In this document: one piece after another, positions 3,275 to 54,049 of the stretch
Layout of the letters: every line of letters begins with the position of its first letter
Position numbering within the stretch: position 1 is the stretch's first letter
Assembly (NCBI GenBank): GCA_945861895.1
Contig: CAMAWF010000002.1
Location: forward strand, 41,073-105,072
Length of the DNA stretch: 64,000 nucleotides
Direction of reading: 5' to 3'
From: Rhizobium sp. Q54
Lineage (GTDB): Bacteria > Pseudomonadota > Alphaproteobacteria > Rhizobiales > Xanthobacteraceae
Notes under the pieces: generated by a model
Database searches by the model: none
Told to the model about the DNA's origin: nothing
Seen by the model: the letters and a program-made list of their open reading frames with translations, nothing else
Made by a program: the position numbers and the translations under genes

Positions 3275-3374
3275 GTCATTCCGGGACGGACCGAAGGGCC
3301 GGGCCCGGAATCCATAATCCCAGTCTGTGAATATGGATTCCGGGCTCGCCGCTAACGCGTCGCCCCGGAATGAC
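3275..3374. repeat. Palindromic repeat, family A (GTCATTCCGG...CCGGAATGAC)
   Basis: A roughly 100-bp imperfect inverted repeat has ends GTCATTCCGG / CCGGAATGAC and a second inner pair, GGAATCCATA / TATGGATTCC. A close relative lies inside the coding sequence at 8538-8634. It fills most of the 250-bp space between the EAL gene and the EF-G-like gene, both of which read leftward. Nothing else gene-like is visible there. Confidence 0.9.
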
Positions 3375-6561: not shown

Positions 6562-6604
6562 GCGTGGCAGATTAGCGGAGACGCGCGCGATTCGCTCCGT
6601 CTTT

Positions 6605-6751
6605 ACCTCGCCCCGCTTGCGGGGAGAGGTCGGCGAGCGTGAGCGAGCCGGGTGAGGGGGCTTCGAGAACGTTACAGAAAGGGATAGGCCCCCTCACCCG
6701 CCTCGCCGCTTTGCGGCTCGGCACCCTCTCCCCGCACGCGGGGAGAGGGAA
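6605..6751. repeat. Two inverted copies of a palindromic repeat, family C
   Basis: Two units, at 6605-6660 and 6688-6751, face each other. Each carries a CTCTCCCCGC...GCGGGGAGAG type hairpin plus a GGTGAGGGGG / CCCCCTCACC end. Related hairpins occur at 19724-19771 (inside uvrB), 21925-21948 and at the right edge of the window. The pair lies between the solute-binding-protein gene start and the 3' end of the aminotransferase gene and could fold into one large cruciform or RNA hairpin. Confidence 0.9.
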
Positions 6752-6757
6752 AGCGGA

Positions 6758-8121: not shown

Positions 8122-9408
8122 ATGGACGCCCTCTTCGACAGCCTGCGCAGCGGCTCATGGCTCACCCGCGAGCGGATGCAGCTGGTGGCGCTTGCCGTGC
8201 TGGCCGCCTCGCTGGCCGGCTTGATCTGGCTGGTGGCGGCCTCCGATGGGCTCAACGACCGGCTCGGCCGCCCGCTCGGCACTGACTTCTCCAATGTCTA
8301 CGCCGCCGGCACGTATGTGCTGGAGGGCCGTCCCGCGGCGCCGTTCGATCCCGCCGCGCAGTACGCCCGCGAGCAGGCGATCTTCGGCCAGGCCACGCCG
8401 TTTTACGGCTGGCACTATCCGCCGTTTTTTCTGGCGCTCGCCGCGTTGCTGGCGCTGATGCCGTACACCTTGGCGCTGGCGCTTTGGCAGGGCACGACGC
8501 TGGGGATTTATCTGTGGGCCGTTCGTTTCATTTTCTTGTCATTCCGGGGACCGCGAAGCGGGAGCCCGGAATCCATAACCACCATCGAGACTATGGATTC
8601 CGGCCCGCGCGCGGACGCGCGCGACCGGAATGACAACACGATCTTCCCCCTCCTTCTCGCGCTGGCCTTCCCCGCTGTCTTCGTCAATCTCGGCCACGGC
8701 CACAACGGATTCCTCACCGCGGCGTTGTTCGCGGCCGCATTGCTCGCGCTCGACCGGCGGCCGGTCCTTGCCGGCATCCTGTTCGGCTGCCTTGCCTACA
8801 AACCGCAATTCGGCGTGCTGATTCCGCTGGTGCTGGCGGCGAGCGGGCGCTGGCGCGCCTTCGCGGCGGCGGCGGCGGCCGTGGCGATATTCGCGCTCGC
8901 GGTCACGCTTGCCTTCGGGCCCGACGTATGGCGCGCGTTCATCGCATCGACCGAGTTCACACGCACAGTTGTGCTGGAAGCCGGCGACACCGGCTGGCAC
9001 AAAATCCAGAGCGTGTTTTCGTGGGTGCGGATGTGGGGCGGCGGCGTCACGCTCGCCTACATCGTGCAGGGCGTAGTCACCCTCGCCGTTGCCGCCGCGC
9101 TGGTCCGGCTCTGGCGCAGCACTGCCGCCTTCCCGCGCAAGGCCGCCGCGCTGCTGATCGGCACCGTTTTGGCGACGCCCTACAGCCTCGACTACGACCT
9201 GATGCTGCTGGCGCCGGCCATCGCCTTGCTCGCCGCCGACGGATTTGCGCGCGGCTTTTACGCTTGGGAAAAATCCGCGCTCGCGGCGCTCTGGATCGTG
9301 CCGCTGATCGCCCGCTCCATCGCCGAGGCAACATTAATCCCGCTGGCGGTGCCGGCGATGCTCGCGGCTTTCGTATTGCTGTTGCGAGATCACCGCCCGC
9401 CCGGATGA
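8122..9408 (+). CDS. GT87/DUF2029 membrane glycosyltransferase-like protein with an in-frame repeat insertion
   Basis: This 428-aa polytopic membrane protein begins eight bases after GGAGG. 'GTDFSNVYAAG', 'FYGWHYPPFFL' and 'YKPQFGVLIPLVL' are typical of the GT87 (DUF2029) family of polyprenyl-phosphate-dependent mannosyltransferase-like proteins. A second member lies at 15515-16738. Residues about 139-171 are encoded by a family A palindromic repeat (see 8538-8634) and form a polar, Arg/Asp/Ser-rich loop between two membrane segments where the paralogue is continuous. The frame remains open, so the gene may still work. Sugar donor and acceptor are unknown. Confidence 0.8.
   Translation: MDALFDSLRSGSWLTRERMQLVALAVLAASLAGLIWLVAASDGLNDRLGRPLGTDFSNVYAAGTYVLEGRPAAPFDPAAQYAREQAIFGQATPFYGWHYPPFFLALAALLALMPYTLALALWQGTTLGIYLWAVRFIFLSFRGPRSGSPESITTIETMDSGPRADARDRNDNTIFPLLLALAFPAVFVNLGHGHNGFLTAALFAAALLALDRRPVLAGILFGCLAYKPQFGVLIPLVLAASGRWRAFAAAAAAVAIFALAVTLAFGPDVWRAFIASTEFTRTVVLEAGDTGWHKIQSVFSWVRMWGGGVTLAYIVQGVVTLAVAAALVRLWRSTAAFPRKAAALLIGTVLATPYSLDYDLMLLAPAIALLAADGFARGFYAWEKSALAALWIVPLIARSIAEATLIPLAVPAMLAAFVLLLRDHRPPG
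8538..8634. repeat. Family A palindromic repeat inside a reading frame
   Basis: The element has the same outer ends (GTCATTCCGG... ...CCGGAATGAC) and inner pair (GGAATCCATA / TATGGATTCC) as the intergenic copy at 3275-3374. It lies wholly within the GT87 gene and is translated as a hydrophilic segment of about 33 residues without a stop codon. This is comparable in kind to palindromic elements reported inside genes in Rickettsia. Confidence 0.88.
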
Positions 9409-12137: not shown

Positions 12138-12179
12138 GCGGCGCACCCGCGCCCAGTGAATTTCCTGGAACTCTGCCTT

Positions 12180-12279
12180 AGAGTCTGATCGGCTCCGATT
12201 GAATCAGAGCTTGGCTCTATCTTTTTTTTGAGCATGATCTTTTCCGAAAACCGGTTCCCACTTTTCGGGATCATGCTCT
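12180..12279. repeat. Palindromic repeat, family B (GAGCATGATC...GATCATGCTC), intact copy
   Basis: A 100-bp unit has two parts. The leader, AGAGTCTGATC...GATTGAATCAGAGC, is itself a small inverted repeat followed by a T-run. The main hairpin is GAGCATGATC...GATCATGCTC, with CCGAAAA / TTTTCGG inside. Related copies are at 13462-13532 (variant), 24398-24537 (interrupted) and 53949-54049. The T-run after the leader hairpin could act as a terminator for the upstream gene. Confidence 0.93.
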
Positions 12280-15514: not shown

Positions 15515-16738
15515 ATGGCCATCGCGCCCAGCGGCGACGTTTCGAAACATGACGGCGCGCAAGCGAACCGCGATGCGGTCCGCGCTTTCGCGATCCTGGG
15601 CGCGTTTTTCTTCGTGGCGACCGCGGCCGCCTACGTCTATACGCTCGCCCTCGCCGCGCCGATCCCGCGCGACGGCTCGACGCTGGTGGTCGGCCGCGAC
15701 TTTTTGAATTTCTGGATGTATGGCCGCGCCGCGCTGCTGCCGGAGCCCGGCCGCTGGTATGACGTGGTCTTGTATCAGCGCGAGCTGGCCGGCCTGCTCG
15801 GCGCGGACTATCCCGGACAGAACTGGTCCTATCCGCCCAGCATCATGCTGATCGCCGCGCCGTTCGGGCTGCTCGGCTATATGCAGGCGCTGCTGATCTG
15901 GACGCTGCTCGGGCTCGCGGTGTTCATTGCGGTGGCGCGCAATCATTTCGGCGATATGCGCGTGCTGGCCGCGCTGGTGTTCTCGCCTGCCGCCGTGTTC
16001 TGCCTGATCTCAGGCCAGAGTTCGTTGCTCACCGCGGCGATGCTGATCGGCATATTCGCCTGGCTCGACCGCAGGCCGGTCGCCGCCGGAGTTCTGATCG
16101 GACTTTTGACCCTGAAGCCGCAGCTCGGCCTGCTGTTTCCGGTCCTGCTGATCGCATCCGGGCGCTGGCGCGTGTTCGCCGCCGCCGCCGTCACAACGCT
16201 CGCGCTCGCCGCGTTCAGCGCCGCGCTGTTCGGTCCGCAGGTGTGGATCGATTTCGTGCTCAAGGCCCTGCCGACGCAAAATCTGGTGCTGGCCGATCCG
16301 CAAGCCATCGCGACGCCGTTTTATCCGACCGTGTTCATGAACCTGCGCGGCATCGGCGCGAGCTACACGGTGGCGATGGCGGTGCAGCTTGGCTTTTCGC
16401 TGGCCGCGGCCGGCGCGGTGGCCTGGGTCTGCCGCCGGCGCAGGGACGCCGACCCGCAACTCCTGGCCGCGCTGTTTTTCGCCTGCGCGATCGCCGCTGT
16501 GCCTTATCTTTTGTCCTACGACACGCTGGCGCTCACGTTCGCCGCGCTCGGCCTGCTCGCGGCCGGAAATCTCGATCGCCAAGGGCGCCTGCTGGCGCGT
16601 CTCGCCTATTGGCTGCCGCTGCTGCAAATCGCGCTCGGCTCTTTGCACATCCCCGGCCCGGCTTTGATCGCGCCCGCTTTTGCCGGCTATATCCTGCTGC
16701 GGCTGAAAGCTTCGCCGCCGCGGCTTTGTCGTGTATAG
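15515..16738 (+). CDS. GT87/DUF2029 membrane glycosyltransferase-like protein
   Basis: A 407-aa polytopic membrane protein, paralogous to the product of 8122-9408. Shared family features are 'VVGRDFLNFWMYG', 'NWSYPPSIMLIA' and 'LKPQLGLLFPVLLIASGRWR' around residue 190, plus a C-terminal 'PYLLSYDTLALT'. Unlike the first copy it has no repeat insertion, so it shows what the uninterrupted protein should look like. The ORF track begins at a TTG (15482); ATG 15515 is preferred but has only a weak ribosome-binding site. Polyprenyl-phosphate-sugar transfer on the periplasmic side is inferred from the family. Confidence 0.82.
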   Translation: MAIAPSGDVSKHDGAQANRDAVRAFAILGAFFFVATAAAYVYTLALAAPIPRDGSTLVVGRDFLNFWMYGRAALLPEPGRWYDVVLYQRELAGLLGADYPGQNWSYPPSIMLIAAPFGLLGYMQALLIWTLLGLAVFIAVARNHFGDMRVLAALVFSPAAVFCLISGQSSLLTAAMLIGIFAWLDRRPVAAGVLIGLLTLKPQLGLLFPVLLIASGRWRVFAAAAVTTLALAAFSAALFGPQVWIDFVLKALPTQNLVLADPQAIATPFYPTVFMNLRGIGASYTVAMAVQLGFSLAAAGAVAWVCRRRRDADPQLLAALFFACAIAAVPYLLSYDTLALTFAALGLLAAGNLDRQGRLLARLAYWLPLLQIALGSLHIPGPALIAPAFAGYILLRLKASPPRLCRV

Positions 16739-24291: not shown

Positions 24292-24397
24292 CGCGGCTTT
24301 CTGATCTGCGGCCTGGGAAACATGGGTTTTTATCACGGCATCGCCTGCCGCTGAATGGGACGCCGCCGAAGGGCAAGTCCCCTCGCGCGCGCCGCAT

Positions 24398-24537
24398 AGA
24401 GTCTGATCCACTCCAATTGAATCAGAGCCTGGCCCTATCTTTTTGTTTGAGCATGATCTTTTCCGACCTTCCTTCGCCCGCCGAAGCGGGCTTCGCGAAG
24501 GCGGGAAACCGGTTCCCACTTTTCGGGATCATGCTCT
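24398..24537. repeat. Family B palindromic repeat interrupted by another palindrome
   Basis: Leader AGAGTCTGATC and outer stem GAGCATGATC...GATCATGCTC match the intact copies. Between CTTTTCCGA and AAACCGGTTCCC, however, there are about 39 extra bases (24467-24505) that form their own hairpin, CCTTCGCCCGC...GCGAAGGCGGG. It occupies most of the 317-bp gap between the VanX-like gene and the next gene; nothing else is evident there. Confidence 0.92.
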
Positions 24538-53689: not shown

Positions 53690-53950
53690 ATGTCAGCTAG
53701 TCCGGCGGCATTCACGGCGCTTGCCATTGGCGTGCTGCTGAGTTCCTGCGCCGGCCCGGGCTCGGGGCTGACCGGAAACGATACCGGCGGGATCGTTCCC
53801 TGGTCGCCGGAAAGCCGCGAATACGCGGCCGACTGGGCCGCCGCGCACTGCGCGCGCTACGGCAAGATTGCGCGCATCACCAGCGTGCGCGCCGGCTACG
53901 GCAATTACATCGGATTTTCCTGCCGGTTTGACCGGCGTGCGGTCCGCTAG
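53690..53950 (+). CDS. Small lipoprotein, unknown function
   Basis: The 86-aa precursor has a lipobox 'LLSSCAG' after a hydrophobic segment. The mature part includes 'GIVPWSPESREYAADWAAAHCARYGKIARITSV' and 'YIGFSCRFD', with two cysteines that could pair. ATG 53690 is used; a GTG at 53672 overlapping the thioesterase stop is possible and would give six more residues. The TAG stop lies inside the first bases of a family B repeat. The ORF-track version beginning at 53117 is the same frame read through the thioesterase gene. Confidence 0.65.
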   Translation: MSASPAAFTALAIGVLLSSCAGPGSGLTGNDTGGIVPWSPESREYAADWAAAHCARYGKIARITSVRAGYGNYIGFSCRFDRRAVR

Positions 53951-54049
53951 AGTCTAATCGGCTTCGATTGAATCAGGGCCCGGCGCCAGCTTTTTGTTTG
54001 AGCATGATCTTTTCCGAAAACCGGTTCCCACTTTTCGGGATCATGCTCT
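53949..54049. repeat. Family B palindromic repeat
   Basis: An almost complete copy: leader AGAGTCTAATC...GATTGAATCAGGGC, then a T-rich stretch, then GAGCATGATC...GATCATGCTC with CCGAAAA / TTTTCGG. The main hairpin is identical to that at 12231-12279. It separates the small lipoprotein gene from the rsmE 3' end, where it may act as a terminator. Confidence 0.93.

Follow-up and report, generated by a model that had tools for sequence, protein, structure and literature searches.

How does a palindromic repeat come to lie in frame within a membrane protein gene, and is its presence there a single event or a recurrent one? This question was raised by one locus in a 64,000-nucleotide stretch of the Rhizobium sp. 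Q54 genome (hereafter the window), in which the following features are concerned:

8122 to 9408, plus strand: GT87 (PimE-like) membrane glycosyltransferase gene, an open frame of 428 amino acids
8536 to 8636, no strand assigned: in-frame family A REP dimer, two inverted CGTC-type REPs around a 14-nt spacer
8537 to 8575, plus strand: left REP, read from the sequence
8594 to 8636, minus strand: right REP, inverted, read from the sequence
3275 to 3374, no strand assigned: intergenic family A copy (G000:C2:44347-44448), the reference copy of the initial annotation
15515 to 16738, plus strand: GT87 paralogue without the insert

A REP dimer in the frame of a GT87 gene

The segment at 8536-8636 is a CGTC-tagged REP dimer of family A. 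Its outer arms (TTGTCATTCCGG / CCGGAATGACAA, 8536-8547 and 8625-8636) and inner arms (GGAATCCATA / TATGGATTCC, 8568-8577 and 8592-8601) are perfect, and the hairpin is predicted at -57 kcal/mol. The left REP consists of the tag TGTC (8537-8540), an 8-bp stem ATTCCGGG/CCCGGAAT (8541-8548 / 8565-8572) and the tail CCA (8573-8575); the inverted right REP has the tail TGG (8594-8596, CCA on the other strand), a slightly short stem of 7 bp (ATTCCGG/CCGGAAT, 8597-8603 / 8625-8631) and the tag GACA (8632-8635). CGTC-tagged REPs carry a CGTC tag (or TGTC/CCTC), a stem of 8-9 bp beginning with AT, a 4-5 nt loop and a CCA tail (PMC3733652). The left loop measures 16 nt as against the usual 4-5 nt, a length that is not strict since the CGTC-1 loops of Bradyrhizobium differ in length (PMC3733652); family B elements found in the same GT87 loop of relatives have a 9-bp stem and a 5-nt loop. 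With its TGTC tag, and with no PF01797 found in 11 genomes of the genus, the element does not fall into the GTAG class of REPs mobilised by RAYTs. As the initial annotation had noticed, the ends and inner arms of the copy at 3275-3374 recur within the gene, the intergenic copy matching the genic one at 78%.

The host gene was identified by a Pfam GT87 (PF09594) match that spans the insert (6.7e-43; 147.6 bits against a cut-off of 25) and by a Foldseek match to PimE (3.5e-06), which upholds the earlier description of an in-frame palindrome in a membrane glycosyltransferase-like gene. The best fold matches in the PDB were the PimE structures 9dm5 and 9dm7; a PDB sequence search with the GT87 profile gave no match, PimE being retrieved by the fold search only. 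The AlphaFold model of the 428-residue protein has a mean pLDDT of 92, and the insert is its only long low-confidence stretch, with pLDDT <50 at residues 147-151 and 153-158. PimE has 12 TM helices, both ends in the cytoplasm and a TM6 of 11 residues (PMC12041525); if residues 230-240 are taken as TM6, the insert would by analogy fall in the first cytoplasmic loop, which joins TM2 to TM3. Relative to L062, the nearest insert-free orthologue in our tree, the loop measures 177 nt instead of 84 nt, so that 93 nt (31 residues, near the 33 or so claimed previously) have been gained net. The insert would be translated into a mostly polar stretch of ~31 residues, which the model predicts to be disordered. 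The paralogue has only a short loop, as had also been observed. Flank dN/dS was 0.11-0.25, both when an insert-bearing orthologue was compared with an empty one and when the two carried different inserts; these values indicate that the gene around the insert is under purifying selection and therefore that the insert is tolerated as coding, as had been proposed.

Family A copies in the host genome

A blastn search of the 3.77-Mb host genome with the 100-bp stretch gave 43 matches at E<=1e-3, corresponding to ~25-30 distinct sites as many sites match on both strands, and the best non-self match had a value of 3.6e-26 (87%). This number is far beyond chance, and family A is thus a dispersed, many-copy and mainly intergenic REP. 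Three of the ~25 sites lie in frame in conserved genes, namely the GT87 gene and two others revealed by the genome search for further genic copies that the initial annotation had suggested (gene names here and below, i.e., ileS, uvrD, glyS, ATP-dependent DNA ligase and DNA polymerase I, were read from translations):

G000:C5:72151-72249: family A copy in ileS, in frame
G000:C149:1445-1544: family A copy in a uvrD-type helicase gene, in frame

Several long frames spanning genic copies proved to be GC-rich antisense frames of ileS, uvrD and others and were rejected. No Y1 transposase of the RAYT type (PF01797) was found in 11 genomes of the genus, the control being positive in 5 of 14; this is in line with CGTC REPs lacking a dedicated transposase, unlike GTAG REPs and their RAYTs (PMC3733652).

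The GT87 loop in relatives

We collected 114 non-redundant orthologues from relatives and public genomes, 113 of them in frame, and measured loop length over about residues 126-184. In distant homologues the loop is short, 78 or 105 nt in many cases, while in the same genus and neighbouring genera it often reaches 135-249 nt, the extra DNA mostly matching repeats dispersed at other loci. Across the 114 orthologues, loops of 69-126 nt had almost no repeat matches and those of 135-249 nt mostly had them; many of the in-frame orthologues have a short loop free of repeats. The segment is therefore not a conserved domain shared by homologues. It is a dispersed repeat that most orthologues, and the paralogue, lack, and so was inserted. 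The suggestion that the repeat is mobile stands as a historical statement, borne out by dispersal and by presence and absence between relatives; this evidence does not extend to present-day movement, and no mobiliser was found.

Repeats could be assigned in 32 orthologues, all within this one loop. Family A occupies it in four (L030, which is the window locus, L075, L155 and L172), family B (CGTCATGGCC...) in eight (L035, L040, L042, L063, L079, L080, L082 and L089), family C (CCCTCCCC...GGGAGGG) in 14, and family D (CTCCCCGC...) in six, the last being a weaker assignment in which four have dispersed-repeat matches and two (L074 and L091) were assigned by eye. Every loop insert of families A, B and C matches dispersed copies of its own family. 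With 40 candidates scored in most genomes and many sites matching on both strands, family B gave 12-80 matches per genome in 14 genomes and family C 5-59 in 13 of the 14, with none in G062. Palindromes like family D fill the GT87 loop in some relatives (e.g., L156 and L184), and the window itself holds a similar one:

6601 to 6753, no strand assigned: inverted repeat with CTCCCCGC/GCGGGGAG arms, resembling family D by eye

Two further sequence features were seen. A module of the type GCGTTTACGC..TCTTCGACG..CTATGG, or its reverse, occurs inside the arms of both B and C (L051, L070, L079, L080), as if the repeats were mosaics. The window also contains three copies of another dispersed repeat, TAGAGTCTGATC...GAGCATGATCTTTTCCGAAAACCGGTTCCCACTTTTCGGGATCATGCTCT, at 12179-12279, 24397-24537 and 53948-54049.

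Outside the loop, a single insertion of at least 10 residues was found in the 113 in-frame orthologues, 14 residues near the C-terminus of one distant homologue. Complete or near-complete genomes with loop inserts include G004 (family B), G011 (family C) and G034 (decayed family C), the first two being one-contig assemblies, so the pattern is not an artefact of draft assembly. Copies of families B and C are open in 44% of the six frames, and passing a frame filter is thus not rare.

Recurrence on the tree

A maximum-likelihood tree was built by quick search from the flanks only, with the loop left out. Family states require 24 changes over five states on this tree, and presence or absence 19, counts that do not separate gain from loss; at least 11 changes fell within disjoint clades at SH-aLRT >= 95. 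Well-supported clades with mixed states were the following:

L094 (C) and L184 (D)
L070 (C), L079 (B) and L150 (C)
L035 (B), L036 (C) and L067 (empty)
L039-L042, L051, L047 and L050 (B, C and empty)
L083 and L085 (C), L090 and L092 (empty)
L063 (B) beside four empty loci
L155 and L172 (A), L156 (D) and L182 (no assigned repeat)
L082 (B) beside three empty loci

The GT87 loop thus serves as a recurrent landing spot, and the gene that holds it still works. The spacers of same-family inserts resembled one another no more closely than spacers of random genomic copies do, a result compatible with mostly separate arrivals but no proof of them. When spacers were used to look for shared descent, only the pair L040/L042 exceeded the genomic null, so that the number of separate arrivals is uncertain, and some same-family inserts may have been inherited. 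In this pair of family B inserts both arms match exactly and all 6 differences lie in the spacer, as against 83% identity in the flanks; the arms here change more slowly than the surrounding gene.

Codon phase and insert boundary

Within the GT87 loop, families A (4 of 4) and B (8 of 8) were always read in phase 1 and family C in phase 0 (8 of 8 measured), and family A in uvrD was read in phase 0 in 15 of 15 cases. Other phases are often open as well (15, 10 and 8 of 24 family A copies and 11, 9 and 12 of 19 family C copies, by phase), so stop codons do not force a single phase per family. In hydropathy, phases 0 and 1 of family A differed little, as did the phases of family C; phase 0 of family B would be hydrophobic, which may explain the absence of that phase. 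Most inserts begin no farther than about 0-5 codons from the end of TM2, and families A and B have three start offsets in common (0, 3 or 6 nt apart). The starts vary by codon steps, and a search for a fixed target sequence at them found none. The single phase, like this boundary, could have come about through common ancestry of some inserts, through selection acting on the peptide, or through entry or exchange at a fixed site.

Other invaded genes

The ileS site is empty in most relatives: of the 30 read, 26 have 21 nt there and the other four no more than 45-63 nt, so that recurrent invasion is not seen at this place. In nearly the whole genus, the uvrD loop flanked by QYLWLRLL and KNICCVGDDDQS is invaded: it is enlarged in 28 of 30 loci (own genome included) and matches family A, B or C/D in 26, three of which (L201, L203 and L222) are out of frame. 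Among 40 family B and C copies, single in-frame genic copies were found in glyS (B, L273), an ATP-dependent DNA ligase gene (C, L282) and DNA polymerase I (C, L296).

In the middle of the uvrD inserts a peptide like (G)(V/L)SLEDTWDEP or SLADTFD recurs (L206, L207, L210, L212, L214, L219, L223, L224, L225, L226, L227 and L228), with outer parts from different families, and could be an old linker that has been retained between the two REP halves. A further type of uvrD insert (GLVLRDASPNSSTGRAERGPYGDAPQDEG) was seen in L216, which matches none of families A-D, and in L225, which matches only A, weakly.

Origin of the insert

We consider it probable that a family A REP landed in a permissive TM2-TM3 loop, and that repeated arrivals, filtering and decay shape this loop. 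Small palindromic repeats of at least three, probably four, families would keep arriving from a large genomic pool; arrivals elsewhere in the GT87 gene, or out of frame, would be purged, and those in the short loop would persist if their net length were divisible by three and the frame open, thereafter decaying in frame, being lost or being replaced. The insert itself would be nearly neutral. Tolerance alone leaves unexplained the one codon phase per family and the tight 5' boundary; the failure to find a REP-associated transposase, and the chance that some same-family inserts were inherited, also count against this account. A second possibility is targeted entry or in-place exchange, in which a DNA-level site preference operates or a resident palindrome is swapped through recombination or repair, a small number of old insertions thus changing family repeatedly with their phase kept. 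Such a route, which we regard as unlikely, would suit the one phase per family in each loop, the offsets shared by A and B, the different families of sister genomes and the identical arms of L040/L042 with differences confined to the spacer. Yet the starts vary by codon steps with no common target sequence evident, same-family spacers other than those of L040/L042 are no more alike than unrelated genomic copies, and C and D have no obvious sequence in common with A and B. It is similarly doubtful that the GT87 and uvrD loops are coding exchange sites, which unrelated palindromes enter or replace at a fixed phase by a DNA-level mechanism; were this so, a gene would cycle through different disordered peptides.

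A useful insert, whose peptide or mRNA hairpin would act in translation pausing between TM2 and TM3, in mRNA stability or as a binding motif, is less likely still: the strength of the hairpin, the unchanged arms of L040/L042 and the recurrence of the SLEDTWD-like peptide in uvrD are what such a function would lead one to expect, but unrelated families coexist with many empty orthologues and short apparent remnants, and no sequence is conserved across the GT87 inserts. That a broken gene or a misassembled repeat is being observed seems very improbable. Many of the genomes are drafts, and the L119 orthologue is out of frame, as are the three uvrD loci named above; for the general pattern, however, this reading is contradicted by the in-frame inserts of one-contig G004 and G011, by dN/dS well below 1 and by 113 of 114 orthologues being in frame. 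Least probable of all, with nothing found in its favour and refuted by the present results, is an ancestral domain lost in other lineages, since distant homologues are short-looped, unrelated sequences occupy the same place and the same sequences are dispersed in the genomes. Landing in a permissive loop, followed by filtering and decay, therefore remains the preferred account.

Relation to known systems

In-frame intragenic REPs are already known. CGTC REPs sometimes lie in frame in UvrD, DNA polymerase I and tRNA synthetases, and the only same-site insertion reported in that study is for recB in two Xanthomonas species (PMC3733652). The elements described here share with them the TGTC/CGTC tag, AT stem, CCA tail, inverted dimers and a mostly intergenic, partly genic distribution, but the family A loop is longer and one protein loop is common to several unrelated families across genera. 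The family A element resembles Br-REP2 of Bradyrhizobium, and both Br-REP1 and Br-REP2 have the same ATTCCGGG...CCCCGGAATGA core; these are transcribed and reported in 3' UTRs and intergenic regions (PMC5082802), whereas the family A insert lies in a coding loop. PimE shares the Pfam family and fold, its 12 TM helices fitting the protein if the insert is placed in the TM2-TM3 loop, but the GT87 protein here bears a REP-derived segment. Literature on insertion hotspots and same-site RPE insertion yielded nothing relevant beyond PMC3733652, PMC2229807, PMC5082802 and PMC12041525.

The RPEs of Rickettsia are palindromes of ~100-150 bp that lie in frame in conserved genes and are translated, the one tested in guanylate kinase being roughly neutral (reviewed in PMC2229807). 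The likeness is one of behaviour only, and the present case differs in the bacteria concerned, in the large intergenic repeat pools and in one loop being recurrently filled by different families. What is new is the repeated colonisation of one loop by unrelated families, in at least two genes and with a single phase per family. The same loop, with different selfish repeats in dozens of species and empty relatives alongside, amounts to a natural repeated experiment, which allows insertion preference to be separated from tolerance for REPs that move without a known transposase and the route from repeat DNA to protein sequence to be followed.
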